This document shows, piece after piece, positions 1 to 58,799 of a stretch of 64,000 bases of DNA. Made by a program: the position numbers and the translations under genes. Position 1 is the stretch's first letter. Each line of letters begins with the position of its first letter. Origin of the DNA: Pocillopora verrucosa (taxonomy: Eukaryota > Cnidaria > Anthozoa > Scleractinia > Pocilloporidae); assembly GCF_036669915.1 (NCBI RefSeq), contig NC_089318.1, forward strand, positions 20,354,405 through 20,418,404. Direction: 5' to 3'. Below the pieces are notes generated by a model. That model saw only the letters and a program-made list of their open reading frames with translations, was not told the origin of the DNA and ran no database searches.

Positions 1-924
1 AGAGTCGTATTGCTGCAAGAGATATTCGCTGCGTCGAAGATATTCAAACAGCTCGGTTAATTTTAATTTTCTGTTCTTTTCTTCTCTCCTCATGTGAGCT
101 GCAAGTAGAAAGAAGGCTCTTGCCGATATGGCATTTCCGTATAAAGCTTGACCATTCAGGTCAGATTCCGTGACTGAGATAAGCATTTTCTTCGCTGATC
201 TGGATTTGTTTTCGTACGATAGGGTCGCTGCCTGTTCTATCTTTAAGACCAGAACCATGTCAGCATTTTTTCTATCTTCATAGTAGTGAATTTTCTCTGT
301 TGCAAGGCGCTTGTGTTGGACAAACATTCCGTTGTCTTGAAAAAGCTCGAGCGCTTTTAGGAGTTGCTCGCCCTCGCGTTGCTTTCTGCTAAAATTGCCT
401 TGAATCTTGATTAAGGCCATCGGTAGTTCGACACGAACAATACTCGCTCCACTCGAGTCTGTGTGTTCTTTTTCTAGAGTGTCGCTCAACGGCTGAAGCT
501 GGCAGTCCACGACTCCTTTTGCTGTCTGGTATTTAAGAGTGCAATCTACTTCCTTTGGACCGCTATCAGATCGAACTTCCCCTTTGTTGAAAAGCTGTCG
601 CTGGCATTCGACTTTTTCTGTCACTCCTTTTAGTCGTTCACTACGATCGTTCGAGTCGGCTTCTTTTGATCCATTCTCTCCCTGAAGCCCGACCCTTTCG
701 CAGTCTCGACTGCTGCTCATTTGCTCTGTGTTTGAATGGCCCACTAGAATGGCGCTAAAGTTTGCGATTTTTACGTTGAAAGTGTTTGCGACTGTCTCAA
801 ACTTTGCTCGAGCGATAATCGGTGCATTAGAAGGAGACTTTGATGACAAGCCTTTCCCATCGTAAGTTGTCTGTCCGTGGTATGTGCGTCCTTTAGTGAA
901 ATCTTCAGCGAGGGTAGGTGCCAT
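1..924 (-). CDS. RHIM-like/helical-repeat array protein, copy A (3' end outside window)
   Basis: An open frame of 308 codons runs from an ATG at 924-922 to the window edge without a stop, so the C-terminus is missing. It aligns throughout with the intact copy at 9872-11395. The N-terminal motif reads ANFSAILVGHSNTEQ, a RHIM-like core with the Gly and the Asn at +3 kept. The helical region begins near residue 170 and the visible part ends inside the family signature (LLQQYDS, just before SPEDW). The upstream 925-1130 matches the upstream of 9872-11395. A kappaB-like palindrome lies 221 bp before the ATG. Function is not known; a signalling adaptor role is inferred from the motif and helical architecture only. 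Confidence 0.8.
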   Translation of the reverse strand, partial: MAPTLAEDFTKGRTYHGQTTYDGKGLSSKSPSNAPIIARAKFETVANTFNVKIANFSAILVGHSNTEQMSSSRDCERVGLQGENGSKEADSNDRSERLKGVTEKVECQRQLFNKGEVRSDSGPKEVDCTLKYQTAKGVVDCQLQPLSDTLEKEHTDSSGASIVRVELPMALIKIQGNFSRKQREGEQLLKALELFQDNGMFVQHKRLATEKIHYYEDRKNADMVLVLKIEQAATLSYENKSRSAKKMLISVTESDLNGQALYGNAISARAFFLLAAHMRREEKNRKLKLTELFEYLRRSEYLLQQYDS

Positions 925-1141
925 TTCACCCATATTTCGTGCTTCGTCGACGATGTTATTTTGACGGTTCTGCCTCTCTGATTTCACGCTTTTGCTCTTG
1001 TTTTGTTCTTTAAGGTTGTCCTTATTCGAGCGCGGGCGAAATGTTTGAGGAGTTGTAGCCGACAAATGAATTTGTCATCGATGAAATCCTGCTGAACAAA
1101 CTTCAGAGGTATAATAGTCACGCATTTTATTAGCTATACTG

Positions 1142-1158
1142 AAAGGGGAATTCCCTTT
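1142..1158. promoter_or_regulatory. kappaB-like palindrome upstream of copy A
   Basis: AAAGGGGAATTCCCTTT contains GGGAATTCCC, a full match to the NF-kappaB consensus GGGRNNYYCC on both strands. It lies 221 bp before the ATG at 924. The equivalent position before 12057-13580 has GGGAAATTCCC and before 9872-11395 a one-base-off GGGAAAGACCC. Use by NF-kappaB is inferred. Confidence 0.45.
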
Positions 1159-2419: not shown

Positions 2420-3853
2420 TCAACTTGAACATTTCTGTTCCGTTTCACTGGCGCTTGTTTCACCGCTGCCATCATTGCTGGAGGTTTCAGACTCGTTGCC
2501 AAAAGGAGACTTTATATTTTCTCTTTGTGGAATACCGTGGCACAGCTGCTGAAGAAAATCGATGCGCTCTTGAAGCGAAGATAGCTCAGTGGTGAATTCA
2601 TGATGCTGAGCAATTTCCAATGCCTCTTCGGCGGTTTTCTTGGCTAGTGGGTACATTGCCCTTCCCTGTCGATAATACTGATCAGAGCGGGTTTTCAAAA
2701 TCTGCACTCGCGTTCCTCGAGGAATAACATCAGATAGTTGGTGCTCCAAAATATCGAGATGTTTTACTGCATCTGCAATATCTTGCGGGGGAATGACTTT
2801 TATTCGAGTTCGTGCCACAGTTGATATACAATCGAGTAAAACAGCTGCCGCTCGAAGGTGCCCATATATTTGCTTCTTAACTCGCACTCTCTCTCTGGGA
2901 TCCTTCTTGCCCGTTTCAATTGCGTTTTCGAAGTATTTTTTTACCATCCTCTGGTATTTGTTTCGTGCTTCCGCATTTCTCTCGTCATCCGGAATCGTAC
3001 TCATATGCATCAAATAAATTGAACCATAGTTGTAATAAATCTCAGCCAAGTCCTCCGGAGACTCGTGGTTTTGCAGCAAGAATTCGCCTCTTTCGAGGAA
3101 CTGGCGGAGACGCGGAAGCTTTTTGCTATTTTGATATCTACAGGCCTGTACGAACCTATAGTAGGCTCTCGCTAATAAAATATTTGGATTGCGAAGCTGA
3201 TAGGTAGAGCCAAAATCTATCGCCGAGGAGAAAAGCTGCTTGCTTTCCTTTAGGGATTTTTTCTGGTAAGAAAAAGCCACTCCGCGTTCTATCATCATTG
3301 CCATTTGCATGTCAGTGTTGCCTTTACGCATAAAATATTCCATGTATGAAGTAACCAAACGATCGTGTTCCTCAAACTGTCCATTGTCTTGTAAATCTTC
3401 AAGTCGCTCCATGATTTGCTCGCATTGTTTTCCGTTGAGATATCCTGTTCTTTCGATAACTGGCAACTGCGGCTCGATGTCGTGAACTGGGGTTGGAACT
3501 TCGCAGCCTTGTAAGTCATCGAACGCTTGTACTAGGCTCTCAGTTTTACCCCTTTGTCGCTCGCTGCAATTGCCATCCTTCGGGCTGCTATCGCATTGAA
3601 CCCCGTCGTCGTTGCAGCAAAAGCTATGGCTTACTTGTTCTGTGTTCGACTGGCCAACTACAGTTACGCTGCAGTTTGCGAGTGTTAAGTTCATAGTATT
3701 TCGGTCGATGTCAACTTTAGCTTGAGCGATGAAGGAGGCTGAATCTTTTGGAGTAAAACTGAATAATGAGCCCATAACATCGTAACATGATGGCTGTCCA
3801 CGTTCTGTGAGCTGTTTTGAAAATTCATTAGCGGGGTTATGTGTACAATTCAT
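2420..3853 (-). CDS. RHIM-like/helical-repeat array protein, copy B
   Basis: Intact single-exon frame of 477 codons from ATG at 3853. Residues 52-73 carry the N-terminal beta-prone motif; N60-C-S-V-T-V-V-G67-Q-S-N70 has the same spacing as the RHIM of RIPK3-type proteins, with Val in place of the usual Gln at -2. Residues about 130-440 are predicted by eye as consecutive amphipathic helices, TPR-like, with the family signature SPEDLAEIYYNYGS from residue 265. The tail is Ser/Glu-rich. This is the most divergent intact copy; its upstream region lacks the kappaB block but matches the upstream of 7070-8386. No enzyme motif, signal peptide or membrane segment is visible, so a cytosolic scaffold or adaptor is the likeliest class (inference). 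Confidence 0.85.
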   Translation of the reverse strand: MNCTHNPANEFSKQLTERGQPSCYDVMGSLFSFTPKDSASFIAQAKVDIDRNTMNLTLANCSVTVVGQSNTEQVSHSFCCNDDGVQCDSSPKDGNCSERQRGKTESLVQAFDDLQGCEVPTPVHDIEPQLPVIERTGYLNGKQCEQIMERLEDLQDNGQFEEHDRLVTSYMEYFMRKGNTDMQMAMMIERGVAFSYQKKSLKESKQLFSSAIDFGSTYQLRNPNILLARAYYRFVQACRYQNSKKLPRLRQFLERGEFLLQNHESPEDLAEIYYNYGSIYLMHMSTIPDDERNAEARNKYQRMVKKYFENAIETGKKDPRERVRVKKQIYGHLRAAAVLLDCISTVARTRIKVIPPQDIADAVKHLDILEHQLSDVIPRGTRVQILKTRSDQYYRQGRAMYPLAKKTAEEALEIAQHHEFTTELSSLQERIDFLQQLCHGIPQRENIKSPFGNESETSSNDGSGETSASETEQKCSS

Positions 3854-3870
3854 TACTTTCAGAATTTCTT

Positions 3871-5006: not shown

Positions 5007-6391
5007 CTATCCTGTATTTGACCCACTGGCACTGTAGGCGGCTTCGCTGGTTGAAACTTCGAGTTCTTCAGCGAAAACTAGGTGAGAATGAAGTTTCATC
5101 GCAAACAATTCAATCATCTCTTGTAGAGTGTTTAATTCAGTGTCAAATTTATGAAAGGAAGCGAGCCTGAAAGCCTCTTCTACTGTTTCTTTGGCCAGGT
5201 TGTATGATCCCTGACGATAACACTGATCTGATCGAGTTTATAAGAGCTGTATCCATGTACCCTTGGGGATACAGTCACCAAGTTTGAACTGAACAATATC
5301 CAGGTGATCTTCAGCTTGTTTGATGTCGCTGGGTGGAATGGTTTTCTGTTGAATGCGTGCGGTAGTTGAACAACAATCAAGGAGAATTGATGCAAGTTTG
5401 ATGTGAGCGTATCTTTCCCTTTTAATTCGAACTCTTAATCGATGATCTTTTTGACTGAAGAAGAGAGCTTTCTCAAAAGAGCATCTCGCGTTATTCCGCA
5501 TGGCGTTACGGGCACGAGCATTTCTCGTGTCATCCGGTATCAGGCTCATGTAATCTAACCATAAACAACCATAGGTGTAGTAGAGGTCAGCCCAGTCTTC
5601 TGGAGAGTCGTACTGCTGCAAGAGATGTTCGCTGCGTCGAAGATATTCAAACAGCAGAGTTAATTTTAACTTTCTGTGCTTTTCTTCTCTCCTCATGTGA
5701 GCCGCAAGTACATAGAAGGCTCTTGCCGATATGACATCTCCGTATAAAGCTTGACCATTCAGGTCAGATCCCGTGACTGAAATAAGCATTTTCTTCGCTA
5801 ATTTGGATTTGTTTTCGTATGAGAGGGCCACTGCCTGTTCTATCTTTAAGACTAGAACCATGTCAGCATTTTTTAGTAATAAAAAGTAATGAATTTTCTC
5901 AATCGTAAGGCGCTTGTGTTGGACAAACATTCCGTTATCTTGACAAAACTCGAGCGCTTTTAGGAGTTGCTTGCCCTCGCGATGCTTTCCGCTAAAATCG
6001 CCTTTTACCTTGATTGAGGTCATCGGTAGAACGACACGGGCAGTAGTCGCTCCACTCGAGTCTGTGTGTTCTCTTTCTTTTGTTTCGCTCAACGGCGTGA
6101 GATGGCAGTTCACGACTCCTCTTGCTGTCTGGTATTGGCTCAGGGTGCAATGTTCTTCTTTTTAACAGCTGTCAGATCGAACTTCGCCTTTGCTGAAAAG
6201 CTTCGTTGGCGTTCTAGTTTTTCTGTCATTTCCGTTCACTACGATCGTTCTAGTTGGCTTCTTTTAGACCATTCTCGCTCTGAAGCCTGTCTCTGTCGCA
6301 GTCTCGTTGCTGCTTACTTATTCTATGTTTGAATGATTTGCTTTAAGGACGCTACAATTTGCGAGTGTTACGTTCAAAGTGTTTGCGACCG
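5007..6391 (-). pseudogene. Array protein pseudogene C (recent duplicate of copy E)
   Basis: Nearly identical to 9872-11395 across the helical region, including SPEDWADLYYTYG. A single A-to-T change turns the Lys codon of the QLLKTRSDQ segment into TAA at about 5238, removing the last 77 or so residues, although the frame beyond it remains homologous to the normal stop at 5007-5009. The 5' part is also damaged: frame breaks occur between 6113 and 6391, and homology stops at about 6391 inside the RHIM-like region, so the start codon and first roughly 45 residues are absent. Lesions and high similarity together indicate a young pseudogene. Confidence 0.85.
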
Positions 6392-7069
6392 TGTATGTTT
6401 CATCCAGAATTGCGTCTAAGTTTTTGTGGAGGGTGCCATGTTTTGGTTAAGAAAATAGTCAAAGCAAATGTATTTTTGCCGCAGATATTACTGTTGAAGC
6501 CCCAACTAAGTAGCTTTGGAATCCTTCAGTCGAGAGACACACATGAAGAATGACTTTCTTCGTTTTTTTTAGAGCTCCATCGTCATGTTCCCAACCGAGT
6601 CTGACTTTTGTATTGATCAACATCAAAGGATTGAAATTTCTTATCTACATGCAAGTTAGATTTTTAAAGAATTTTATAGGCACAACAAACTCGCAGCCAC
6701 CCCTTTTCACCGTCCGGCCAGAGAAAGTAACTTTTATTGAATCAGGGAATTTATCCAACAATATTTTATATGTTTACATGCAAATTGAACCTTAAAACGA
6801 AAATCTTCTTACGTCTAAAATGGAAGTTGACATCATGCCTTGGTACTTTGTACTTCCAGTTTCACAATTAAATTGTGAAAGAAAAGTTCAGGTTCATTGA
6901 AACGCGGCTTCTTACTAAAAAAACACTTGCTATTCGTTTATCTTACTTTTCAGTATGAATAATGATTTCAGTATGAATAATGATTTAACTTTCAGCGACA
7001 CATACAGAAAAACGAGTTTTATGCAGACACATGGAGATATACGTTTTAGCGAGTTCGAATTATCCATCT
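6392..7069. other. Intergenic DNA between pseudogene C and copy D
   Basis: AT-rich DNA with no gene I can support. A small direct tandem repeat (TCAGTATGAATAATGATT, two copies) lies at about 6952-6987. Confidence 0.5.
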
Positions 7070-8386
7070 CTATCCTGAACTGGACCCACTGGCACTGTAA
7101 GGGGCTTCGCTGTTTGAAAAATGAAGTTCTTCCGTGAAAACTAGTTGAGAATGAAATTTCCACTGAAACAACTCGATCATCTCTCGTAGAGTTGTTAATT
7201 CAGTGTCAAATTTGTGGAAGGAAGCGAGCCTGTAAGCCTCCTCGACTGTTTCTTGGGCAAGTTTGTATTTATCCTCACGATAAAACTGATCTGATCGGGT
7301 TTTCAAGAGCTGTATCCATGTACCCATGGGTATAACCTCTCCAAGTTTGAACTGAACAATATCAAGGTATTCCTTAGCTTGTTTGATGTCGTTGGGTGGA
7401 ATGGTTTTCTCTTGAATCCGCGAGGCAGTTGAATAACAATGTAGGAGTATTGTTGCTAGTTTGATGTGAGCGTACATTAGCCTTTTAATCTGAACTCTGG
7501 ATCGAGGATCTTGTTGGCTGTAAAAGACAGCTTTCTGAAAAGAACTTATCGCGTTATCCCGAGCAGTGTTGTGAGCACACCGGTTTACCGGTATCAGACT
7601 CATATAATCCAGCCAAAAGCAGCCATAGGTCTGATAAAGCTCAGCCCAGTCTTCTGGCGAGTCATGGTTTTGCAAGAGAAATTCGCTGCGCCTTAGAAAT
7701 TTTAATATCTTACCCATTTCCTTTGAAGATCTTTCCATAGGATCAGCCACTCTTAAAAAGTAGGCTCTCGCCAGTAATATGTTCGGATTTATAATTTGAT
7801 ACGTTTGGTGTTTGTCTAATGTTATAACTGAAATAAACATGCTCTTGCTTTTCTTGAATTCTTTTTGATACGCAAAAGCTACTCCTCGCTCTATTTTCAG
7901 CGCTAAAGCCATGTCGGGATTTTTTCCTTCCGCAAAACTTTGCATACTTGCGGTAACAAGGCGTTCATGGTCTTCAAACTTTGCATTGTCTTGGAGATCC
8001 TCAAGTCTTGACAAGATCTTCTCAAACTGGATTCCTTTTAGGGATCCTTGTATTTTGATTAGGGGCAGTGGACAGTCCACAAAGGTACGGTGTCGTGCTT
8101 CGTCAGAAAGCTGTCGATGGTAGTCGACGGGTTTCAAAGCTTGTTCCGTTTTTGATTTGCCGACTGCAACAGTTTTGAAGTTAGAGATAGTAATTTTCAG
8201 AGTGTTTGCGACGGTGTCAATTGTTGCTTCAGCGATACCCCTTGCAGAATTGACAGGAACACACGTAACTAACGAGCCATTCTCATCGTTGCAAGATGGC
8301 TGTCCGTTGTCTATGCTTTGGTTTGATATGTCTTCAGCGGGGCCGGATGGGAATTTCATTCCTTTCCTAGTTTCTTGATTCGTCAT
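7070..8386 (-). CDS. RHIM-like/helical-repeat array protein, copy D
   Basis: Intact frame of 438 codons. I start it at the ATG at 8386 (MTNQETRKG), because two relatives begin with MNDQTRN or MDDQTRN at the corresponding place; an in-frame ATG 31 codons upstream at 8479 has no family support. The motif is SNFKTVAVG76KSKTEQ: the core Gly is kept, but charged residues are more frequent than in other copies. The helical region contains SPEDWAELYQTYG. The tail ends PYSASGSSSG, close to that of copy E. It lies between pseudogene C and copy E, and shares upstream DNA with copy B rather than with its neighbour E. Confidence 0.82.
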   Translation of the reverse strand: MTNQETRKGMKFPSGPAEDISNQSIDNGQPSCNDENGSLVTCVPVNSARGIAEATIDTVANTLKITISNFKTVAVGKSKTEQALKPVDYHRQLSDEARHRTFVDCPLPLIKIQGSLKGIQFEKILSRLEDLQDNAKFEDHERLVTASMQSFAEGKNPDMALALKIERGVAFAYQKEFKKSKSMFISVITLDKHQTYQIINPNILLARAYFLRVADPMERSSKEMGKILKFLRRSEFLLQNHDSPEDWAELYQTYGCFWLDYMSLIPVNRCAHNTARDNAISSFQKAVFYSQQDPRSRVQIKRLMYAHIKLATILLHCYSTASRIQEKTIPPNDIKQAKEYLDIVQFKLGEVIPMGTWIQLLKTRSDQFYREDKYKLAQETVEEAYRLASFHKFDTELTTLREMIELFQWKFHSQLVFTEELHFSNSEAPYSASGSSSG

Positions 8387-9282: not shown

Positions 9283-9288
9283 GCAAAT

Positions 9289-9871: not shown

Positions 9872-11395
9872 CTATCCTGTATTTGACCCACTGGCACTGT
9901 AGGCGGCTTCGCTGGTTGAAACTTCGGGTTCTTCAGCGAAACCTAGGTGAGAATGAAGTTTGATCGCAAACAATTCAATCATCTCTTGTAGAGTGTTTAA
10001 TTCAGTGTCAAATTTATGAAAGGAAGCGAGCCTGAAAGCCTCTTCTACTGTTTCTTTGGCCAGGTTGTATGATCCCTGACGATAACACTGATCTGATCGA
10101 GTTTTTAAGAGCTGTATCCATGTACCCTTGGGGATACAGTCACCAAGTTTGAACTGAACAATATCCAGGTGATCTTCAGCTTGTTTGATGTCGCCGGGTG
10201 GAATGGTTTTCTGTTGAATGCGTGCGGTAGTTGAACAACAATCAAGCAGAATTGATGCAAGTTTGATGTGAGCGTATCTTTCCCTTTTAATTCGAACTCT
10301 TAATCGATGGTCTTTTTGACTGAAGAAGAGAGCTTTCTCAAAAGAGCATCTCGCGTTATTCCGCATGGCGTTACGGGCACGAGCATTTCTCGTGTCATCC
10401 GGTATCAGGCTCATGTAATCTAACCATAAACAACCATAGGTGTAGTAGAGGTCAGCCCAGTCTTCTGGAGAGTCGTACTGCTGCAAGAGATGTTCGCTGC
10501 GTCGAAGATATTCAAACAGCAGAGTTAATTTTAACTTTCTGTGCTTTTCTTCTCTCCTCGTGTGAGCCGCAAGTACATAGAAGGCTCTTGCCGATATGAC
10601 ATCTCCGTATAAAGCTTGACCATTCAGGTCAGATTCCGTGACTGAAATAAGCATTTTCTTCGCTAATTTGGATTTGTTTTCGTACGAGAGGGCCACTGCT
10701 TGTTCTATCTTTAAGACTAGAACCATGTCAGCATTTTTTCTATCTTCATAGTAGTGAATTTTCTCCATTGCAAGGCGCTTGTGTTGGACAAACATTCCGT
10801 TATCTTGACAAAGCTCGAGCGCTTTTAGGAGTTGCTCGCCCTCGCGATGCTTTCCGCTAAAATCGCCTTTTACCTTGATTGAGGCCATCGGTAGTTCGAC
10901 ACGGGCACAACTCGTTCCATTCGAGTCTGAGTGTTCTATTTCTTTTGTTTCGCTTAACGGCGTAAGTTGGCAGTCCACGACTCCTCTTGCTGTCTGGTAT
11001 TGGTTCAGGGTACAATATTCTTCCTTTTGACCGTTGTCAGATTGAACTTCGCCTTTGCTGAAAAGCTGTCGTCGGCATTCGACTTTTTCTATCACTCTCT
11101 TTTGTCGTTCATTTCGATCATTCGAGTCGGCTTCTTTTGGACCATATTCGCTCTGAAGCCTATCTTTTTCGCAGTCTCGATTTCTGCTTAATTGCTCTGT
11201 GTTTGGATGGCCCACTAGAATGACGCCACAGTTTGCGAGTGATACGTTCAAGGTGTTTGCGACCGTCTCAAATTTTGCTCGAGCAATAATCGGTGCATTA
11301 GGAGGAAACTTTGATGACAAGCCTTTCCCATCGTAAGATGTTTGTCCATGGTGTGTGCTTCCTTTAGAGAGATCTTCAGCGAGGGTAGATGCCAT
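9872..11395 (-). CDS. RHIM-like/helical-repeat array protein, copy E
   Basis: Intact single-exon frame, 507 codons, ATG at 11395. The N-terminal 170 residues are polar and probably disordered, with the RHIM-like core N55-C-G-V-I-L-V-G62-H-P-N-T-E-Q. Residues about 170-480 form the helical region (FSGKHREGEQLLKAL, then SPEDWADLYYTYG from 309), ending with the tail SEAAYSASGSNTG. It is the best template for the partial copy A and for pseudogene C. The upstream DNA holds a near-kappaB GGGAAAGACCC at 11684-11694. No catalytic motif is apparent; I infer a cytosolic adaptor. Confidence 0.85.
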   Translation of the reverse strand: MASTLAEDLSKGSTHHGQTSYDGKGLSSKFPPNAPIIARAKFETVANTLNVSLANCGVILVGHPNTEQLSRNRDCEKDRLQSEYGPKEADSNDRNERQKRVIEKVECRRQLFSKGEVQSDNGQKEEYCTLNQYQTARGVVDCQLTPLSETKEIEHSDSNGTSCARVELPMASIKVKGDFSGKHREGEQLLKALELCQDNGMFVQHKRLAMEKIHYYEDRKNADMVLVLKIEQAVALSYENKSKLAKKMLISVTESDLNGQALYGDVISARAFYVLAAHTRREEKHRKLKLTLLFEYLRRSEHLLQQYDSPEDWADLYYTYGCLWLDYMSLIPDDTRNARARNAMRNNARCSFEKALFFSQKDHRLRVRIKRERYAHIKLASILLDCCSTTARIQQKTIPPGDIKQAEDHLDIVQFKLGDCIPKGTWIQLLKTRSDQCYRQGSYNLAKETVEEAFRLASFHKFDTELNTLQEMIELFAIKLHSHLGFAEEPEVSTSEAAYSASGSNTG

Positions 11396-12056: not shown

Positions 12057-13580
12057 CTATTGTGAGTGACTTCCACTGTTATTGTAGCCGGTGTCGCTGC
12101 TGGCATGATCATGTCCTTCGATAACAATCTGGTCGGGTGTTTGGAGTTTGTTGTTAAGGAAGTTGATTCTTTCACGGAGGGTTTCCAATTCTGTGTTGAA
12201 TTGGTGGACGCATGCAAGCTGATAGGCATCCTCGGCTCTTTCCTTAGCCAGATGGAATCGTCCTTGACGATTAAGTTGATCCGATTGGGTTTTAAAGAGA
12301 AGCATCAACGTTGCCTTCGGTATACTGCCACCGAGTTTGAACTGGATGATCTCAAGGTGCTCTTCGGCTTCTTCAATGTCACTGGGTGGAATTGGTTTTT
12401 CTTGAGCCAGTGCGAAGGTTGAACAGCTATCCAGGAGTATTGTGGCAAGCTTGAGGTGGGCATACATTTGCCTTTTAATCCTAACTCGCGGGCGATAATC
12501 TTGTTGACTGAAATAGATAGCTTTCGTAAAATAGTATTTTGATTTTTCTCGAGCGGCGTTTCGTGCAAGTGCATTTCTCCTGGCATTCGGTATTTGGCTC
12601 ATACGATCCAGCCAAAGAGCGCCATAGGTCTGGTAGAGCTCAGATAAGTCCTCTGGTGAGTCATAATTTTGCAGTAGATATTCGCTGCGTCGAAGAAATT
12701 CCAAGAGCAGGGGAAATTTTGAGTTTCTGTACCTTTCATTTCTTCTCATGTGAGCCGCAAGTAAGTAGTAGGCTCTTGCCGTTATAATGTCTGAATATGA
12801 AGCTCGACTCTTTAGGTCAGATTTTGCGACTGAAATAAGCTTTTTCCTGGCTAGCTTCCATTGACCTTTGTAAGAGAGAGGAGCTGCCCGCTCTATCTCC
12901 AAGACCAACAGCATGTCCGCATTTTTTTCTCCTTCATAAAAATGTATTGCCCTTGTGACGAGGCTGTCGTGTTCATCGAAGTGTCCGTTATCTTGATAAA
13001 CCTCGAGCTTTTCCAAGAGTCGCTCGCACAGGCCATGCTTTCCACTGAGATCTCCTTCTACCTTGATTGGGGCCATCGGTAGTTCAACACTTGTAATAAT
13101 TATTTCACCTGAGTCAGCGTGATTACTATTTTGTGTTGCACTCAAAGGCTGAACTTGGTAGTCTACCACTCCTTTTGCTGTCTGGTTGAGGATGCAATTT
13201 GCTCCCTTTGGACCGCTGTCTGATCTAACCTCGCCTTTGCCGAAAACCTGTTGTTGACATTCGACTTTTTCTGTCACTCTCTTTCGTTGCTCAATACAAT
13301 CGTCAGAGTTGGATTCTTTTCGACTATTTCCGCACTGAAGCCTGCATTGGTCACAACAATGATTACGTCTTACTCGTTCTTTGTTTGACTGGCTAACTAA
13401 AATCATGCTGCAGTTTGCGACTGTTACGTTCAAAGTATTTTGTGTTAATTTTGCATGAGCGATAATCGAGGCTTCGGGAAGAAACTTTGATGACAAGTCT
13501 TTCCCTTCGTGGGATGATGGCTGTCCATGGTTTGTGAGTTCTTTAGAGCGATCTTTAGCGGTGTTAGATGAAGATGCCAT
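12057..13580 (-). CDS. RHIM-like/helical-repeat array protein, copy F
   Basis: Intact frame of 507 codons, ATG at 13580. The motif is N56-C-S-M-I-L-V-S63-Q-S-N-K-E: the core Gly is replaced by Ser. The broken relative at 24330-24500 has Gly at the same place, so the Ser is probably derived. A Cys-rich patch (CCDQCRLQCG) follows at residues about 74-83. The helical region has SPEDLSELYQTYG. The tail ends DTGYNNSGSHSQ. Two kappaB matches lie upstream (13847-13857 and 14138-14147). Function unknown; adaptor inferred. Confidence 0.85.
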   Translation of the reverse strand: MASSSNTAKDRSKELTNHGQPSSHEGKDLSSKFLPEASIIAHAKLTQNTLNVTVANCSMILVSQSNKERVRRNHCCDQCRLQCGNSRKESNSDDCIEQRKRVTEKVECQQQVFGKGEVRSDSGPKGANCILNQTAKGVVDYQVQPLSATQNSNHADSGEIIITSVELPMAPIKVEGDLSGKHGLCERLLEKLEVYQDNGHFDEHDSLVTRAIHFYEGEKNADMLLVLEIERAAPLSYKGQWKLARKKLISVAKSDLKSRASYSDIITARAYYLLAAHMRRNERYRNSKFPLLLEFLRRSEYLLQNYDSPEDLSELYQTYGALWLDRMSQIPNARRNALARNAAREKSKYYFTKAIYFSQQDYRPRVRIKRQMYAHLKLATILLDSCSTFALAQEKPIPPSDIEEAEEHLEIIQFKLGGSIPKATLMLLFKTQSDQLNRQGRFHLAKERAEDAYQLACVHQFNTELETLRERINFLNNKLQTPDQIVIEGHDHASSDTGYNNSGSHSQ

Positions 13581-14463: not shown

Positions 14464-15813
14464 TTATTCACTACAACAGGTTTCGCTACTTGATTGCTCG
14501 AGTTCTTTAGAAACAACTAGCTTAAATTTTTCAACATTATCGTCAAGAAACGTTATACGTCTTCGTAGAGGGTCCAATTCTGTGTTAAATTTATTGGAGG
14601 ACGCGAGATGAAGAGCCTGCTCAGCTGTCTCCTTCGCAAGTTGCAGAAATCCTTGGCGATAAAATTGATCCGATCGAATTTTCAAGAGCTGTATCCTTGT
14701 ACCTGCGGGGACACTGTCACCAAGGTCATGCTGAATGAAATTGAGGTGTTCTTCAGCTTCTTTTATGTCACTTAGGGGAATAGCTTTCGCTTGGGTTCGC
14801 ACGGCAGTTGAAACGCAATCTAGGAGTAATGTTGCAAGATTGAGACGAATGTACCTTTGCCTTTTAACCCGAACCCTTAGTCGATGATCTTTTTGGCTAT
14901 ACGAGATAGCTTGCTCAAAATAGTATCTCGCGTTTTCTTTGGCGGTCGTTCGTGCCGGCGCATTCCTCTGGTCATCCGGTATAAGGCTCATGCGATCTAG
15001 CCAAAGGCGACCGTATTTTTGGTAGAGTTCGGCCCAATCTTCCGGCGAGTCGTAGTTTTGCAACAAAAACTCGCTGCGTTTAAGGTATTCAAAGAGCCGA
15101 GGTAACTTCACAGGCTTTCTTTTCCGTATGTCAGCCACAAGTAAAAAGTAGGCTCTTGCCATCAGAATATTCGAATTAAGTACATGACACGTTCTTTCTT
15201 TGTTTGATTGTATGACTGAGGTAAACATACTCTTGCTCTTTTTAGACTCTTTCTGATAAGAAAAGGCTACTCCTCGCTCTATTTTTAAGGCCAACTCCAT
15301 GTCAGGTTCATTTCCATTGGCACAAAGTTGAAGCAACGATAGGACTAAATGCTCGTGTTTGATAAAATGTCCATTGTCTTGCAAAATCTCAAGTTTTTCC
15401 AGGATTCTCTCGCATCGTGGTCCTTTGAGATACCCTTGTTTCTTGATTAAGGGCATCGGTTTTTCAACACTGGAGGAAACAATTCCACCTGAGTCTTCCT
15501 TTCGGCAATGGGCTTGTGCTTCTTTAGAAAGCTTTTCTTGGCCACAGCAATGATCATTTTTTCCTTGTTCTATACTTGACTGACCGACCAGTACTACGCT
15601 GAAGTTTGAGACCATTAACGTCAAAGATTTGGTGTGAGCTTTAGATCTTGCCTCAGAGACAGTCGAGACTGAATTATTGGAAGGAAACCTAGATAACGAG
15701 CCTTTCATGTCGGTGCAAGTTACCTGTCCATTGTCTGTGCGCTCTTTTGCAATTTGTTTAGCGTTGCTATAAACGCCAACGCTTACCGGCGTATTTCTTG
15801 TTTGGTCATTCAT
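14464..15813 (-). CDS. RHIM-like/helical-repeat array protein, copy G (VLVGQS subfamily)
   Basis: Intact frame of 449 codons, ATG at 15813 (MNDQTRNTPVSVGV). RHIM-like core: N70-F-S-V-V-L-V-G77-Q-S-S-I-E-Q, followed by a Cys/His-containing patch (HCCGQ). The helical region begins near residue 120 (PMPLIKKQGYLKG) and contains SPEDWAELYQKYGRLWLDRMS from about 256. The tail ends SSSETCCSE. It is about 90% alike by eye to 25493-26842. The promoter block with octamer, CCAAT and kappaB is at 16198-16249. Probable cytosolic adaptor, by inference. Confidence 0.86.
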   Translation of the reverse strand: MNDQTRNTPVSVGVYSNAKQIAKERTDNGQVTCTDMKGSLSRFPSNNSVSTVSEARSKAHTKSLTLMVSNFSVVLVGQSSIEQGKNDHCCGQEKLSKEAQAHCRKEDSGGIVSSSVEKPMPLIKKQGYLKGPRCERILEKLEILQDNGHFIKHEHLVLSLLQLCANGNEPDMELALKIERGVAFSYQKESKKSKSMFTSVIQSNKERTCHVLNSNILMARAYFLLVADIRKRKPVKLPRLFEYLKRSEFLLQNYDSPEDWAELYQKYGRLWLDRMSLIPDDQRNAPARTTAKENARYYFEQAISYSQKDHRLRVRVKRQRYIRLNLATLLLDCVSTAVRTQAKAIPLSDIKEAEEHLNFIQHDLGDSVPAGTRIQLLKIRSDQFYRQGFLQLAKETAEQALHLASSNKFNTELDPLRRRITFLDDNVEKFKLVVSKELEQSSSETCCSE

Positions 15814-20110: not shown

Positions 20111-20147
20111 TTCTCTTTATCTAAGTATTTCACTCTTTCTCCGACAG

Positions 20148-24329: not shown

Positions 24330-24500
24330 TATCTTTGTTAGGTATCAGATCGGGTTCTTTTGGACTATTTCCGCACTGAAGCCTGCATTGGTCACAGCAA
24401 TGACTACATCTTACTCGTTCTTTGTTTGACTGGCCGACTAGAATCATGCTGCAATGTGCGACTTTACGTTCATGTTCACACCATTTCTGTTTTGTTTCGT
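24330..24500 (-). pseudogene. N-terminal fragment of a copy F-like array gene
   Basis: Contains AHCSMILVGQSNKERVR and CCDQCRLQCGNSPKE, matching copy F residues about 55-85, but everything after is gone and the first 50 or so codons are deleted. The upstream DNA to about 25080 matches the copy F upstream, including the kappaB site at 24763-24773. It keeps the core Gly that copy F has lost. Confidence 0.75.
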
Positions 24501-27525: not shown

Positions 27526-27686
27526 ACGAAGAGATATAAATAGAAAAGTGCTCATCTTTTTAAAAATATGCATGATATTACTATCATTGTTCACCTGACC
27601 CTGACCACGATTGAAATTAAAATAGTAATTTCGCTGTCACACATTATAGACAAACACTTGTTCCTTGTTGAAAAAATTATCACCGG

Positions 27687-39796: not shown

Positions 39797-40052
39797 TTCT
39801 TGTCGGAAAAAATTATCACCGACCATTATTCAAATTGTAGTGAAAAGGAAGCAAGCGAACAGATAAGATAGAGTAGATAATGGAAAAAAGGAAACACGCC
39901 AAAGGGCAAAAGAATGATAAAAACAGACAGAGTCAATGTGTTTCCACCTCTGAGTATGTCATATACTTAGTAGAGCCGATAATATTATCTTGATCTTGTA
40001 GTATTCAATTGTGATACTTTCAGTCTTCCTCAAGTTTATAATCTTGTGATCT

Positions 40053-42411: not shown

Positions 42412-42526
42412 ACTACCGAGCTTCTAATTGTGTAGTCAGTTACAAGGGAAAAATAGGCTCTTGCCGTTAAAATACTAGGATTCGTAACATCCCAATTTTG
42501 TGTTTGTTCTGATTGTACGACGGAGG
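42412..42526 (-). pseudogene. Short central fragment of an H-type array gene
   Basis: About 38 codons equivalent to SEQTQNWDVTNPSILTARAY remain between two deletion joints; the 5' side runs straight into H-type upstream DNA at 42527. Confidence 0.7.
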
Positions 42527-43356: not shown

Positions 43357-44442
43357 CTATTTCAGCTCATTCCGCTGGTCATCCGGTGGAAGGCTCATAC
43401 AATCCAGCCAAAGGCGACCATATTTTTGGTAGAGTTCGGCCCAATCCTCCGGCGAGTCGTAGTTTTGAAACAAAAACTCGCTGCGTTCAAGGTATTCAAA
43501 GAGCCGAGGTTTTCTCTTTCCTACGTCAGCCACAAGTAAAAAGTAAGCTTTTGCCATCAGAATATTCGAATTAAGTACATGACACGTTTTGTTTTTGTCT
43601 GATTGTATAACTGAGGTAAACACACTCTTGCTCTTTTAGACTCTTTCCGATCCTCTATTTTTAAGGCCAACTGCAAGTCAGGTTTATTTCCATTGGCACA
43701 ACGTTGAAGCAACGATGTGACTGAATGCTCGTGTTCGTTAAATTGTCCATTGACAGAAAAGTAGAGATGGTAAGTTTTGAGCTCGGTGAAGAATTAAGAA
43801 AGATGTTTTTTCGTCTTGTAACGAGCGTGGGACAAAGAAAAATTCTGAGTCCCCATGAGGAATCGAACCTCAGACCTTCGGATTTACAGCACCGGAGCAC
43901 AAATCCGAAGGTTTAAGGTTCGATTCCTCATGGGGACTCAAAATGTTTCTTTGTCTCAAGCTCGTGACAAGACGAAAAAACATCTTTTTGAAATTGTCCA
44001 TTGTTTTACAAAATCTCAAGTTTTACCAAGATTCTCTCGCATTGTGGTCCTTTGAGATACCCTTGTTTCTTGATTAAGGGCATCGGTTTTTCCACACCTG
44101 AGGAAACAATTCCCTTGAGTCTGCCTTTCGGCAATGGACTTGTGCTTCTTTAGAAAGCCTTTCTTGGCCACAGCAAGGATCATTTTTTCCTTGTTCTATG
44201 CTTGACTGACCGACCAGTACGACGCGGGAGCTTGAGACCATTAACGTCAAAGATTGGTGTGTGCTTTAGATCTTTCCTCAGAGACAATTGAGACTGAATT
44301 ATCGGAACGAATCCCAGATAGCGAGCCTTTCATGTCGGTGCAAATTGTCTGTCCATGGTCTGTGCACTCTTTTGCAATTTCTTTAGCGTTGCTATAACTG
44401 AACGCCAACGCTTTCAGGCGCATTTCTTGTTTGGTCGTCCAT
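43357..44442 (-). pseudogene. Array protein pseudogene P (G-type, SINE-disrupted)
   Basis: The start equivalent is at 44442 (MDDQT). The N-terminal region with the motif (around 44200-44250), the linker and the central helices to SPEDWAELYQKYGRLWLDCMS can be followed, but with frame breaks. The C-terminal half is deleted beyond 43357. A 238-bp foldback element (43753-43990) with a 13-bp target duplication interrupts the helical region. Its promoter block keeps CCAAT and CRE, but the octamer and kappaB positions are degraded. Confidence 0.82.
43740..44003. mobile_element. tRNA-centred foldback/SINE element with 13-bp TSD
   Basis: AAATTGTCCATTG at 43740-43752 and again at 43991-44003 flanks a 238-bp insert. 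The insert is an inverted repeat: AGTCCCCATGAGGAATCGAA, then CCTTCGGATTT, a 15-base centre (ACAGCACCGGAGCAC), then the reverse complement. Arms end with the common CGTGGGACAAAG/CTTTGTCTCAAGC tails. The centre and inner arms are a tRNA-like head. The TSD length points to LINE-type target-primed insertion rather than a cut-and-paste transposon. Confidence 0.85.
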
Positions 44443-45558: not shown

Positions 45559-46994
45559 TTACTCGGTGCCGCTACAGCAGCTTTCACCATGGGTATCTTC
45601 TATTTTCATGATAGTAACTTCTTTCGTAACCTCGAGCTTTACGTCAAGAAACTGGATCCTTTCTTGAAGAGTGACTAATTCAGTGTTAAATCTATTCGAG
45701 GAAGCGAGCTGAAAAGCCTCCTTGGCCGTTTCTTTGGCCAATTGGTATAATCTCTGACGATGGAATTGATCAGATCGAGTTTTTAAGAGCTGTACTTGTG
45801 TTCCCGTGGGTATACTCTCACCAAGTCTATACTGAACAAAATCAAGGTGTTCTATGGCTTCCTTAATATCACTGGGAGCGATTTCTTTTTCTTGGGTGCG
45901 CGTGGCAGTTGAACTGCAGTCTAACAGCAGTGCTGCTAATCCGAGATGACAATACGTTTGTTTCTTTATCTGAACTCTCGGTCGTTTATCCCTTTGGCAG
46001 AAAGAGACAGCTTGCTCATAGTAATATTTTGCTTTATCCCGAGCAGTCCATCGCGCCTGCGCATTCCTCAGGTCATCAGGGATGATGCTCATATACTTCA
46101 ACCAAACGCATCCGTAGTTGTAATACAGCTCGGCCCAGTCGTCTGGTGAATCGTGATTTTGCAGAAGAAACTCGCTGCGTTGAAGTAACTCAAATAGCGG
46201 GGATAACGTCACCGACTTTCTATTTGTGTAGTCTGCTACAAGTGAAAAATAGGCTATTGCCGTTAAAATACCAAGATTCGTAACATCGCAATTTTGCGTT
46301 TGTTCTAATTGTATGACTGAGGTAAACATAGACTTGCTCTCCTTAGACTCTTTCCGATAAGAAAAGGCCACTCCTCGCTCTATTTTTAAGGCCAACTCCA
46401 TGTCAAGTTCATTTCCATTGGTACAACGTTGAAGCATCGATGTGACTAAGTGCTCGTGTTCGTTAAATTGTCCATTGTCTTGCAAAATCTCAAGCTTTTC
46501 CAGGATTCTCTCGCATTCTGGTCCTTTGAGATACCCTTGTTTCTTGATTAAGGGCGTCGGGTTTTCAATACTGGAGGAAATAATTCTACCTGAGTCATCC
46601 TGTCGGCAATGGGCTTTGTTTGAAGTTGGCAGGCTACCAATTCCGCTGGTCGGTTGTGTTGGTCCAGAAGGCTGCCCTTTGTCGTTAGAGCAGATTCTGA
46701 TTGTACTTAACCCCCGTTGGCACGTTTTGTTTGCTGATTAAGCAAAGTGTGCTCCTGGTAAGGCTGCTGTTGTTTGGCGAGTGATTGTTGGACTATGACC
46801 ACGCTCTTACTTTGGATCCTTAACTTCAAATTTCTTAGTTCTGTGGCCTTAGTAGAAACTGAGATTAAATTTTCGGAATATTTGTTTGCATCGTTACCAG
46901 ATTCACGTTTTCTTCGTTCCGGTTCCATCGGTAGGATTTCAACGGTTTCGTTCGATGTACACTGTTCTGTAGACTACTTCTCATCACCACTCAT
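45559..46994 (-). pseudogene. Array protein pseudogene Q (H-type with G-type middle)
   Basis: The C-terminal 308 codons (45559-46485) are open and mostly normal (SPDDWAELYYNYGCVWLKYMS, tail GESCCSGTE). The segment at about 46490-46620 is G-type; from about 46620 upstream it is H-type again, with VIVQQSLAKQQQ. Lesions: the sixth or seventh codon after ATG (46994) is TAG where copy T has Gln, and frame breaks occur near 46490 and 46620-46710. The H-type upstream region has been deleted right up to the start. Confidence 0.8.
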
Positions 46995-47530: not shown

Positions 47531-48881
47531 ATTCACTACATCAGGTTTCGCTACTTGATTGTTCGAGTTCTTTAGAAACAACTGGCTTGAATTTTTCAAT
47601 ATTATCGTCGAGAAACGTTATACGTCCTCGTGGAGGGTCTAATTTGGTGATAAATTTATTGGAGGACGCGCAATGAAGAGCCTTATCAGCTCTCTCCTTT
47701 GCAAGTTACAGAAATTCTTGATGATGAAACTGATCCCATCATATTTTTAAGAGCTGTATCGATCCCTGTGCCTGCGGGGACACTGTCACCAAGGTCATGC
47801 TGAATGAAATTGAGGTGTTTTTCAGCTTCTTTCATGTCACTTAAGGGAATAACTTTCGCTTGGGTTCGCACGGCAGTTGAAACACAGTCTAGGAGTGATG
47901 TTGCAAGACTGAGATGATTGTACGTTTTCCTTTTGATCTGAATCTTTACTTGATAATCCTTTTGGCTGTAAGAGATATCTTGCTCAAAATAGTGTCCTGC
48001 ATTTTCTTTGGCGGTTCTACGTGCCGGTGCATTCCTCTGGTCATCCGATATTAGGCTCATGCAATCCAACCAAAGGCGACCGTATTTTTGGTAGAGTTCG
48101 GCCCAATCCTCCGGCGAGTCGTAGTTTTGAAACAAAAACTCGCTGCGTTCAAGGTATTCAGAGAGCCGAGATTTTCTTTTTCTTATCTCCGTCTTAAAGC
48201 CGCAAGTAAAAAGTAAGCTTTTGCCATCTGAATATTCGAATTATGTACATGACACGTTTTGTTTTTGTCTGATTGTATGACTGAGTTCTGAGGTCTACTC
48301 TTACTCTTTTTTTACTCATTCCGATAAGAAAAGGCCACTTCTCGCTCTATTTTTAGGGCCAACTCCATTTCAGGTTCATTTCCTATTGGAACAACGTTGA
48401 AGCGATGATGTGACCGAGTTGTTCGTGTTCATTAAATTGTCCATTGTCTTGCAAAATCTCACTAGTTTTCCAGGATTCTCTCGCATTGTGGTCCTTTGAG
48501 ATACCCTTGTTTCTTGATTAAGGGCATCGGGTTATCATTACTGGAGGAAACAGTTCCACCTGAGTCTGCCTTTTGGCAATGGGCTTGTCTAGAAAGCATT
48601 TTTGGCCACAGCAATGATCATTTTCTATTTGTTCTATACTTGACTGACTGACGGACTAGTACGACACTGAAGCTTGAGACCATTAACGTCAAAGATTTGG
48701 TGTGAGCTTTAGATCTTTCTTCGGAGACAATCGAGGCTGAATTATTGGAAGGAAACCTAGATGGCGAGTCTTTCATTTCTGTGCAAGTTGCCTGCCCATG
48801 GTCTATGCGCTCTTTTGTAATTTATTCAGCGTTGCTAAAAACGCCAACGGTTACAGGCGTATTTCTTAGTTGGTCGTCCAT
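47531..48881 (-). pseudogene. Array protein pseudogene R (G-type)
   Basis: Recognisable from the start equivalent at 48881 (MDDQLRNTPV) to SSSET at 47535, where an early TGA truncates the tail. Multiple frame breaks affect the N-terminal motif (VVLVRQS-like, Gly lost), the central helices (48190-48500) and the QLLK region. The longest open piece (47686-48135) has SPEDWAELYQKYGRLWLDCMS. The promoter block has lost the whole kappaB section (about 49300). Confidence 0.82.
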
Positions 48882-50389: not shown

Positions 50390-51832
50390 TTAATCGGTGC
50401 CACTATAACAGCTTTCACTAGGGCCATCTTCTATTTCCATGATAGCAACCTCTTTGGCAACCTCAAGCTTTACATCAAGAAACTGGATTCTTTCTTGAAG
50501 AGTGTCTAATTCAGTGTTAAATCTATTCGAGGAAGCGAGCTGAAAAGCGTCCTCGGCCGTTTCTTTGGCCAGTTGGTATAATCTCTGACGATAGAATTGA
50601 TCAGATCGAAATTTTAAGAGCTGTACCTGTGTTCCCGTGGGTACACCCCCATCAAGTCTATACTGAACAAAATCAAGGTGTTCTTTGGCTTTCATAATAT
50701 CACTGGGTGCGATTTCTTTTTCTTGGGTGCGCGCGGCAGTTGAACTGCAGTCTAACAGCAGTGCTGCTAGTTTGAGATGACAATACGTTTGTTTTTTTAC
50801 CTGAACTCTCAGTCGTTTATCTCTTTGGCAGAAAGAGACAGCCTGCTCATAGTAATATTTTGCTTTATCCCGAGCGGTCTCTCGCGCCTGCGCATTTCTC
50901 AGGTCATCAGGGATAATGCTCATGTACGTCAACCAAACGCATCCGTAGTTGTAGTACAGCTCGGCCCAGTCTTCTGGCGAATCGTGATTTTGCAGAAGAA
51001 ACTCACTGCGTCGAAGAAATTCAAAGAGCGGGGATAACTTCACCGAGTATCTATCGGTGTAGTCAGCTACAAGTGCAAAATAGGCTCTTGCCGTTAAAAT
51101 ACTACGATTCGTAACATCGCAATTTTGTGATTGTTCTGATTTTATGACTGAGGTAAACATACTCTTACTCTTTTTAGACTCTTTCTGATAAGTAAAGGCC
51201 ACTCCTCGCTCTATTTTTAAGGCCAACTCCAAGTCAGGTTCAATTCCATTGGCACAACGTTGAAGCAACGTTGTGACTAAGTACTCGTGTTCGTTAAAAT
51301 GTCCATTATCTTGCAAAATCTCAAGTCTTTTCAGAATTCTCTCGCATTGTGCTCCTCTGAGATACCCTTGTTTCTTGATTAAGGGCATCGGTTTTTCAAC
51401 ACTGGAGGAAACAATTCCACCTGAGTCTGCCTTTCGGCAATGGGCTTCGTTTGGAGTTTGAAGTTGGCAGGCTACCAACTTTAATGGTCGCTTGTGTTGG
51501 TCTAGCAGGTTGCCCTTTGTCTTTGGAGTAGAGTATGATTGTACTTCACCCCCGTTGCCACGTTTTGTTTCCCGTTTATGAAAGCTGCACTCCCAGTTAA
51601 ACTGCAGCTGTTTGGCGGGTGATTGTTGGACTATGACTAGAGTGTTATTTTGGATCCTTAATTTCAAATTTCTTGGTTCTGTGGTCTTGTCAGAAACTGA
51701 GATTGAATTCTGAGAATATGTGCTTGCATCGTCACCACCCTCACGTCTTCTTCGTTCCGGTTCCATCGGTAGCACTTCAGTGGTTTTGTTCGATGAACGC
51801 TGCTCTGTGGACTGTATCTCATTACTACCCAT
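50390..51832 (-). CDS. RHIM-like/helical-repeat array protein, copy S (mosaic)
   Basis: Intact frame of 480 codons from ATG at 51832 (MGSNEIQSTEQ, the family start); an ATG-less extension of 33 codons upstream is open but is not supported by relatives. The N-terminal motif is NNTLVIVQ69QSPAKQ (H-type). Residues from about 137 to 230 (NEAHCRKADSGGIVSSSVEK to VAFTYQKESKKSKSMF) are G-type; the rest is H-type, with SPEDWAELYYNYGCVWLTYMS and tail PSESCYSGTD. The same mosaic structure occurs in pseudogene N, so the conversion event predates their duplication. Confidence 0.85.
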   Translation of the reverse strand: MGSNEIQSTEQRSSNKTTEVLPMEPERRRREGGDDASTYSQNSISVSDKTTEPRNLKLRIQNNTLVIVQQSPAKQLQFNWECSFHKRETKRGNGGEVQSYSTPKTKGNLLDQHKRPLKLVACQLQTPNEAHCRKADSGGIVSSSVEKPMPLIKKQGYLRGAQCERILKRLEILQDNGHFNEHEYLVTTLLQRCANGIEPDLELALKIERGVAFTYQKESKKSKSMFTSVIKSEQSQNCDVTNRSILTARAYFALVADYTDRYSVKLSPLFEFLRRSEFLLQNHDSPEDWAELYYNYGCVWLTYMSIIPDDLRNAQARETARDKAKYYYEQAVSFCQRDKRLRVQVKKQTYCHLKLAALLLDCSSTAARTQEKEIAPSDIMKAKEHLDFVQYRLDGGVPTGTQVQLLKFRSDQFYRQRLYQLAKETAEDAFQLASSNRFNTELDTLQERIQFLDVKLEVAKEVAIMEIEDGPSESCYSGTD

Positions 51833-53185: not shown

Positions 53186-53189
53186 TTAT

Positions 53190-53605: not shown

Positions 53606-53714
53606 ATACGTTAACAATTTATATTACAAACATGACGCTATCGACATTGTTGATCCTAGCAGAATGCACGACGCGTGTCATATAAACTTCGCAATAGACC
53701 TCGCTCACCTTAGT

Positions 53715-53822
53715 CTCTGTGGCTCAGTGGTAGAGCATCATAGCGCTGAATCCAAAGAACTTGTGACAAGACGAAAAACATCTTTCTCTTTATCTGAGTA
53801 TTCAGTCACTCTTTCTCCGACA
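53715..53822 (+). mobile_element. tRNA-derived SINE head, internally deleted
   Basis: GTCTCTGTGGCTCAGTGGTAG keeps the A box; the B-box half is deleted (joined to CTTGTGACAAGACG). It ends at the acceptor of the DGLUCY exon, as in copies 1 and 3. Confidence 0.5.
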
Positions 53823-53823
53823 G

Positions 53824-57208: not shown

Positions 57209-57350
57209 GGGCAAAAGAATGATAAAAACAAACAGAGTTACTGTGATTCCACATGTTATATACTTAGTGTAGATATAATATCCTTTCGATCTTATAGTAA
57301 CTAATTGTGATCTTTCTTCAATCTTCCTCAAGTTAAAAATCTCGTGATCT

Positions 57351-58799
57351 TTACTCGGTGCCACTATAGCAGCTTTCAGTATGGGCATCTTCTATTTCCA
57401 TGATAGTAACCTCTTTGGCAATCTCAAGCTTTAAGTCAAGAAACTGGATCCTTTCTTGAAGAGGGACTAATTCAGTGTTAAATCCATTCGAGGAAGCGAG
57501 CTGAAAAGCCTCTTCGGCTGTTTCTTTGGCCAGTTGATATAATCTCTGACGATAGAATTGATCAGATCGAGTTTTCAAGAGCTGTACCTGTGTTCCCCTC
57601 GGTACACTCTCACCAAGTCTATGCTGAACAAAATCAAGGTGTTCTTTGGCTTCCTTAATATCACAGGGAGCGATTTCTTTTTCTTGGGTGCGCGCGGCAT
57701 TTGAACTGCAGTCTAACAGCAGTGCTGCTAATCCGAGATGACAATACGTTTGGTTTTTTATCTGAACTCTCGGTCGTTCATCTCTTTGGCAGAAAGAGAC
57801 AGCTTGCTCATAGTAATATTTTGCTTTATCCCGCGCGGCCTCTCGCGCCTGTGCATTTCTCAGGTCATCTGGGATAATGCTCATATACTTCAACCAAACG
57901 CATCCGTAGTTGTAATACAGCTCGGCCCAGTCTTCTGGCGAATCGTGATTTTGCAGAAGAAACTCGCTGCGTCGAAGAAACTCAAATAGCGGGGATAATT
58001 TCATCGAGTTTCTATTTGTGTAGTCTTCTACAAGTAAAAAATAGGCTCTTGCTGTTAAAATACTAGGATTTGTAACGTCGTAATTCTGTGTTTGTTCTGA
58101 TTTTATGACTGAGGTAAACATAGACTTGCTCTTCTTAGACTCTTTCTGATAAGAAAAGGCCACTCCTCGCTCTATTTTTAAGGCCAACTCCATGTCCGGA
58201 TTTTCCCCATCTGCAAAACGTGTAATAAAGGCAGTAACAAGACGCTCATGGTCAGCAAACTTTCCTTCGTCCTGCAGAATTTCAAGTCTTTTCAGGATTC
58301 TCTCGCACTCTTGTCCGTTTAGATATCCTTGTTTTTCGATCAAAGGCATTGGTGGGTCAACGCCGACAATGAAAGTATCGCACCAGTCAGTCTGTGAACA
58401 GTGTTGCGTTTTCCCAAAAGGTTGAAGTTGGCAGGCTACCAATTCCGCTGGTCGCTTGTGTTGGTCTAGAAGGCTGCTTTTTGTCTTTGGAGCAGAGTCT
58501 GATTGTACTTCACCCCTGTTGGCACCTTTTGTTTCCCGTCGAAGCAAAGTGTGCTCCCACTCAGGCTGCTGCCGTTTGGCGAGTGGTTGTTGGACTATGA
58601 CTAAACTCTTGTTTTCAATCCTTAGTTTGAAATCTTTTGGTTCTGTGGCCATGTCAGAAACTGAGATTGAATTTTCAGAATATGTGTTTGCATCGTTACC
58701 ACCCTCATATCTTCTTCGTTCCAGTTCCATAGGTAGGATTTCAAGGGTTTCGTTCGATGAAAACTGCTCTGTAGACTGCTTCTCATCACTACTCATCAT
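57351..58799 (-). CDS. RHIM-like/helical-repeat array protein, copy T (VIVQQP, H-type)
   Basis: Intact frame of 482 codons beginning with two ATG codons (58799 and 58796); the second corresponds to the family start MSSDEKQSTEQ. Motif region NKSLVIVQ70QPLAKRQ, with Pro after QQ. The helical region, entirely H-type without a G-type patch, has SPEDWAELYYNYGCVWLKYMS; the tail ends HTESCYSGTE. It is the closest full-length relative of copy H. Upstream lie H-type sequence, a TTCCAAGAA element (59394-59402), TGACGTAA (59190-59197) and a MITE. Confidence 0.86.
   Translation of the reverse strand: MMSSDEKQSTEQFSSNETLEILPMELERRRYEGGNDANTYSENSISVSDMATEPKDFKLRIENKSLVIVQQPLAKRQQPEWEHTLLRRETKGANRGEVQSDSAPKTKSSLLDQHKRPAELVACQLQPFGKTQHCSQTDWCDTFIVGVDPPMPLIEKQGYLNGQECERILKRLEILQDEGKFADHERLVTAFITRFADGENPDMELALKIERGVAFSYQKESKKSKSMFTSVIKSEQTQNYDVTNPSILTARAYFLLVEDYTNRNSMKLSPLFEFLRRSEFLLQNHDSPEDWAELYYNYGCVWLKYMSIIPDDLRNAQAREAARDKAKYYYEQAVSFCQRDERPRVQIKNQTYCHLGLAALLLDCSSNAARTQEKEIAPCDIKEAKEHLDFVQHRLGESVPRGTQVQLLKTRSDQFYRQRLYQLAKETAEEAFQLASSNGFNTELVPLQERIQFLDLKLEIAKEVTIMEIEDAHTESCYSGTE

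Follow-up and report, generated by a model that had tools for sequence, protein, structure and literature searches.

A coral protein family with leader motifs and a predicted TPR superhelix: RHIM-like cores in one branch and altered cores in a tandem array of Pocillopora verrucosa

The stretch of the Pocillopora verrucosa genome analysed here (the window) comprises 64,000 nucleotides of contig NC_089318.1 (G000:C7:20354405-20418404, within a 353-Mb assembly). It carries a tandem array of genes whose products combine a polar N-terminal leader with a helical region resembling tetratricopeptide repeats (TPR). A first-pass annotation had seen in the leader a motif like the RIP homotypic interaction motif (RHIM), and in the array a possible amyloid-signalling immune family. 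RHIM-like cores were found in relatives of these proteins encoded outside the window, and the window copies have altered cores. With a probability of roughly 0.4, we read the family as coral proteins composed of a motif and a TPR domain, lacking a nucleotide-binding oligomerization domain (NOD), in which one branch resembles RHIM-type amyloid adaptors or sensors and the window branch is a mosaic expansion, specific to its lineage, whose cores have changed.

Searches with a window protein found family members on contigs C11, C9, C12 and C5 (these labels, like C7 and C14, denote contigs of the same assembly), and reverse searches from two C5 members recovered the array; homology of the TPR domain spans five contigs. 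The named homologues are all from stony corals (Oculina, Desmophyllum, Orbicella and Stylophora). The leaders of the C5 proteins contain cores such as VIVGDDNNI, AIVGESNEI, VSIGNNDTI, VVLGDGNQI, LVIGNGNTV, VLIGDNNNI and VIIGDRNEI, and VQIGRRNTT in L019; in four of the six proteins the core is present twice. The pattern phi-x-phi-G-x-x-[ND]-x-phi (phi, hydrophobic) occurred in the leaders of 5/6 C5 proteins and 28/32 homologues of at least 430 amino acids, with shuffle means of 0.12 and 1.16; the six-protein set excludes L034, and L019 fails the pattern at its final residue only. The same pattern was found in 0/11 window copies and 4/82 C7-type homologues, and the looser phi-x-phi-G-x-x-[NSD] in 5/11 and 46/82, respectively (shuffle means 0.81 and 5.78); the members being related, none of these counts represents independent events.

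L034, located approximately 2 kb past the gene of L019, carries VCLQVGDDNTI. In total 34 L034-type proteins were found, three of which (600 amino acids or shorter) were excluded from the motif count. The 31 longer than 600 amino acids, including Oculina LOC144665631, all have LQxG with N at +3, the tetrad being LQVG in 21, LQIG in 4, LQLG in 4, LQAG in 1 and LQMG in 1, and the residues V, L, Q, G and N do not vary within this set. A RHIM-like tetrad (LQ[VIL]G or VQIG, with N at +3) is present in the L034 type and, as VQIGRRN, in L019, and the motif of the first-pass annotation does recur in the family beyond the locus, in the C5 relatives, L019 and the L034 type.

Several results weigh against our reading, beginning with the window itself. 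The tetrads at the aligned place in the eleven intact copies are TVVG, VAVG, ILVG (two copies), ILVS, VLVG (three) and VIVQ (three). The tetrad [VI]Q[VI]G is present in none of them, Gln does not occur at position 2 in any, and Gly is absent from the tetrad in four. Asn at +3 is found in 4/11 (the edge copy, 2420, 9872 and 12057; copies are named by their first position), and in three of these Gly is also kept. Pfam RHIM (PF12721) was unmatched at E<=10 in nine of the ten complete window proteins, in three window motif pieces and in the relatives and pieces scanned, in a search whose HMMER filters discard most weak matches and which had no RHIM protein as positive control. As the window proteins have no Gln at position 2, lack Gly in four cases and leave Pfam RHIM silent, they are by definition not RHIM proteins, and on the same grounds RHIM membership of the window copies, as first annotated, was rejected. 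One short motif had also been annotated as common to the copies: a beta module does occur at the aligned place, but the tetrads vary and the Asn at +3 is present in a minority.

Evolutionary rates and the relatives add to these difficulties. When every intact copy was compared with every other, the ratio of nonsynonymous to synonymous substitution rates (dN/dS) was 0.27 in the TPR region, 0.64 in the leader before the module, 0.61 in the module and 0.57 in the linker; the module is thus not below its flanks, and in group II alone it reached 0.83. The module is under no special constraint among the window copies. The majority of the C5 motifs are without Gln, and none of six C9/C12-type leaders matched any of four core patterns. 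The flanks of the L034-type motif are almost as conserved as the motif itself (2.91 and 3.24 compared to 3.40 bits); because the difference is modest, a folded hairpin is possible there, and the motif may be a hairpin within a small folded domain. A genome-wide Pfam RHIM scan (353 Mb) gave seven matches with E values of 0.387 to 8.92, none in the TPR family, a number that chance could give in a genome of this size.

Profile alignment of the modules with hhalign gave a mixed result. The window-type and C5-type modules aligned with a score of 17.1 and with G on G, compared to a maximum of 6.7 in 100 column shuffles. C5 and L034 scored 13.0 (shuffle maximum 9.2), with G on G only past a two-residue gap, and window-type and L034 scored 4.2, out of register and below the shuffle maximum of 7.5. 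The absolute probabilities were low (4.6 and 1.4). Because the 39-column blocks were pre-selected by the core pattern, with the presumed glycine at their centre, the shuffles are a lenient null. At E<=10, profiles of the C5 motifs retrieved designed repeat proteins and a phosphotransferase from the PDB, and no RHIM fibril. These alignments, apart from the first, also count against the RHIM-like reading.

In a FastTree phylogeny of 48 selected TPR domains, a set without the edge copy, 9/10 intact window copies grouped with one C11 copy and the database homologue P0001, and copy 2420 was placed apart, among proteins of other corals. Rooted at its midpoint, the tree divides into the C5 10-Mb cluster together with C14 and, opposite, C9/C12 together with C7/C11. 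The near-canonical cores lie on the C5 and C14 side, and the core may have been either lost in the window branch or gained in the C5 branch.

The AlphaFold2 model of copy 14464 has a low-confidence leader of about 120 amino acids, in which beta strands at residues 53-58, 63-68 and 71-76 form a module outside the TPR domain (residues 119-430); a globular fold burying the motif was not seen. The module consensus in window-type proteins is approximately A.A..DT.T.TLN[VIL].L.N[CW]N.V.VGQS. Conservation is 1.88 bits in the leader before the module, 2.45 in the module, 2.05 after it and 2.56-3.64 in the TPR helices. The A helices of TPR domains line the groove, and these inner helices outscored the outer (B) helices (3.37 vs 2.93 bits, Mann-Whitney p 1.5e-4). 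In the model of a C5 relative the motifs sit in a leader with a predicted local distance difference test score (pLDDT) below 50 and without strands. Both models show a tandem helix-turn-helix solenoid, as the TPR-like helical region first annotated would require, and APPBP2 was the best structural match of both, with Rap, NprR and PlcR among the folds listed. The fold is accordingly predicted to be a TPR superhelix of the APPBP2/Rap/MalT-like kind. No Pfam TPR model reached its curated cut-off in the lists that give bits (best 22.3 vs 30.1); TPR_2 was matched by 44/92 family members (best E 0.00046) in a scan for which 25 of 61 matching families were listed. When entire proteins or motif fragments were compared with PDB sequences, the matches were weak or to repeat proteins only. 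On an AGGRESCAN-like scale, part of the module was among the three hottest seven-residue stretches of the leader in 11/11 window copies and the hottest in 8/11, which is weak evidence.

It is quite possible, though at less than even odds, that the module is nothing more than a short beta-meander or a docking motif without amyloid function, that its phi-x-phi-G-x-x-N core is a beta turn convergent on the RHIM, and that the proteins are TPR scaffolds. The three adjacent strands in the window copy would suit a meander, as would the conserved flanks of the L034 motif; the silence of Pfam RHIM in the family and the C9/C12-type leaders without any of the four core patterns point the same way. The strands are, however, predicted with low confidence (62, 60 and 40 in ten-residue blocks), the C5 relative shows none around its motifs, and a turn alone would not need V, L, Q, G and N to be fixed in 31/31 proteins.

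The two remaining alternatives concern the TPR domain. The top structural match of both models would agree with a substrate or cargo adaptor without immune role, like APPBP2 (a Cullin-2 receptor), LGN or kinesin light chain, and the expansion could then be general coral tandem duplication, as tandem duplicates make up nearly one third of the predicted genes in two coral genomes according to PMC10236652; we consider this improbable. Still less credit is given to the window copies being peptide receptors, with a short peptide recognised by a Rap/PlcR-type TPR groove and the leader serving as a variable tail for output. The conserved inner helices and the presence of Rap, NprR and PlcR among the listed folds are consistent with it, but the support is fold similarity alone, and the TPR region is under purifying, not diversifying, selection.

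A motif-plus-TPR adaptor or sensor is, in our judgement, the most likely function of the family. The polar, probably disordered leader would present one short RHIM-like motif or two, of the form phi-x-phi-G-x-x-N or a variant of it, and the C-terminal part would form a Rap/MalT/APPBP2-type TPR superhelix, no nucleotide-binding domain having been found in the Pfam lists. Because the inner helices are more conserved and the TPR region is under purifying selection, the groove probably binds a shared peptide or protein. Such binding would gather the leaders, whose motifs could then form amyloid-like seeds by homotypic stacking and draw in partners with such a motif. In the window branch the beta module may persist as a regulatory version (a decoy) or one of changed specificity, and the copies would have been remixed through gene conversion; we prefer to see this branch as a derived regulator rather than a canonical seed. 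Amyloid formation, partners and an immune role of the family are what we infer, and an effector or adaptor role in defence is plausible by analogy with fungal PP-NB-ARC-TPR receptors and given the tandem expansion and mosaicism. It is a rather unlikely extension that stony corals have RHIM-class amyloid signalling in which the branch with the invariant LQxG..N core seeds, two-motif branches beginning MG[CNS].FS work at the membrane, and arrays like the one in the window contribute recombining variants, specific to a lineage and with altered cores, by which seeding is tuned or blocked. Several C5-branch proteins do begin MG[CNS].FS, which we take to resemble a myristoylation signal.

Compared to the known RHIM proteins (RIPK1, RIPK3, TRIF and ZBP1; PF12721), L034 and L019 share the phi-Q-phi-G core with N at +3 and its position N-terminal to a folded domain. 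The window copies differ from them in the core and in the Pfam result, and the coral motif is joined to TPR, none of the Pfam lists showing a kinase, TIR or Death match. In human RIPK3 a naturally occurring TQIG tetrad, with Thr in first position, did away with NF-kB activation but not with ZBP1-dependent death, as described in PMC12119088; the copy quoted in the first-pass annotation, with TVVG, likewise has Thr at this position. Fungal receptors of the PP-NB-ARC-TPR type (PNT1/HELLP of Podospora) have an N-terminal RHIM-related motif and a C-terminal TPR as in the corals (PMC7885112), and partial cross-seeding between the motif of the PNT1 pathway and human RHIMs has been described (PMC7885112, PMC12881547). 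Unlike PNT1, the coral family has no NB-ARC or NACHT match in Pfam between motif and repeats in the nine window and seven relative proteins scanned. PGRP-LC, PGRP-LE and Imd of Drosophila also carry divergent RHIM-like motifs, with partner domains differing from those of the coral family (PMC7885112). The coral TPR-CHAT proteins are likewise TPR proteins tandemly expanded in corals (PMC12314368); a CHAT domain was unmatched in the same 16 proteins. Rap/NprR/PlcR, MalT domain III and APPBP2 have about 7-15% identity to the coral TPR, and a shared output domain was not seen.

According to PMC7889193, RHIM-related motifs are reported in mammals and mammalian viruses, in flies, in fungi and in prokaryotes, and a 2025 survey found no cnidarian RIPK1 homologue with kinase, RHIM tetrad and Death domain (PMC12119088). 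Among the titles and opening lines of abstracts listed, none dealt with the TPR family or with coral RHIM motifs, and we do not claim absence from print. If our reading is true, a coral RHIM-like core joined to TPR without a NOD would supply a missing piece in the evolution of amyloid cell-death signalling. The family would also offer short peptides open to direct assay, and the array is a concrete case of the uncharacterised, recombining tandem arrays in coral genomes.

Some further observations concern the relatives and the RHIM scan. L034 (295-2343) and L019 (1344-3212) have an extra stretch between motif and TPR (...VGYWFRF... and ...VGFLFRF..., respectively) with no telling Pfam match, and the C14 member shares it as ...LGFWFRF.... 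L054 (1311-2912, on C14) is a distant single member (E 0.0017 with L034) with no core evident in its leader by eye, and is a candidate for an early-branching form. P0078 (618 amino acids), a window-type homologue, has an additional IQIG in its leader, the strict tetrad occurring in 1/82 homologues. Among the matches of the genome-wide scan, a 51-amino-acid frame at C7:970443 (L023, 1501-1653) with an IQLG..N core reaches the Pfam RHIM cut-off when taken with its neighbours (20.3 bits, E 0.387) and could have arisen by chance or belong, as an exon, to a genuine RHIM gene; L026 and L028 gave weaker tetrad-like matches, whose translations were viewed.

The copies in the window were counted with tblastn, using the ten intact open reading frames as queries and merging the matches. 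There are 20 copies of one family, all on the minus strand: ten intact, one intact across the left edge and nine broken or fragmentary, in agreement with the at least ten intact and nine broken same-strand genes first annotated. The description as single-exon genes fits the uninterrupted open frames, which are its basis rather than transcripts. The complete frames span 438-507 amino acids, and the shared motif annotated as SPED(W/L)AE(L/I)Y was found, as SPED[WL][AS][ED][LI]Y, in 11/11 aligned rows (ten intact copies and broken 40545). Paralogous 300-nucleotide blocks, in the families shown, are 61-99% identical, and the 112 database homologues found have E values of 2.2e-61 at the weakest. 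Judged by sequence, the array is confirmed as real, with similarity far beyond chance.

From the left, the edge copy (1..933, module 724-780, ILVG, N at +3) has its ATG at 933, and a 549-amino-acid open frame extends past the window edge in the genome. It is followed by the 477-amino-acid copy outside the array's main clade (2420..3853, module 3638-3694, TVVG, N at +3), in which NCSVTVVGQSN reads as first annotated for copy B, and by intact copies at 7070..8386 (438 amino acids, module 8144-8200, VAVG), 9872..11395 (507, 11195-11251, ILVG, N at +3) and 12057..13580 (507, 13377-13433, ILVS, N at +3). Group I comprises the modelled copy 14464..15813 (449, 15568-15624, VLVG) and 25493..26842 (449, 26597-26653, VLVG), and group II comprises 17034..18482 (482, 18258-18314) and 57351..58799 (482, 58575-58631), both with VIVQ. 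Two intact copies are mosaic. Copy 31051..32385 (444, 32161-32217, VLVG) has a group-I-like N half and a group-II-like C half, being closest to 25493/14464 in four of the first five comparable 50-column segments (79-89%) and to 17034 in the final four (85-100%). Copy 50390..51832 (480, 51611-51667, VIVQ) has a group-II frame with a middle resembling group I. The broken copies lie at 5010..6413 (one in-frame TAA), 40044..41495 (one in-frame TGA) and 45562..46994 (its close database homologue P0001 is intact), and, from tblastn, at 29360..30137, 43363..44442 and 47565..48881, with fragments at 24355..24462, 27667..28263 and 42414..42524.

An ARAGORN call of tRNA-Thr at 43847-43937 (minus strand), within broken copy 43363-44442, is probably spurious. 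Retroelement-like remnants lie between copies on the minus strand at 23123-23779, 54782-55483 and 55732-56145 (RVT_1, E 9.7e-8; DUF6451 twice), and 35380-36351, on the same strand, matches Transposase_21 (tnp2) weakly (E 0.058). On the plus strand, two similar partial open reading frames resembling D-glutamate cyclase (20054-20935 and 53664-54500; PF14336, E 3.1e-30 and 1.1e-20, respectively) were perhaps duplicated together with the array.
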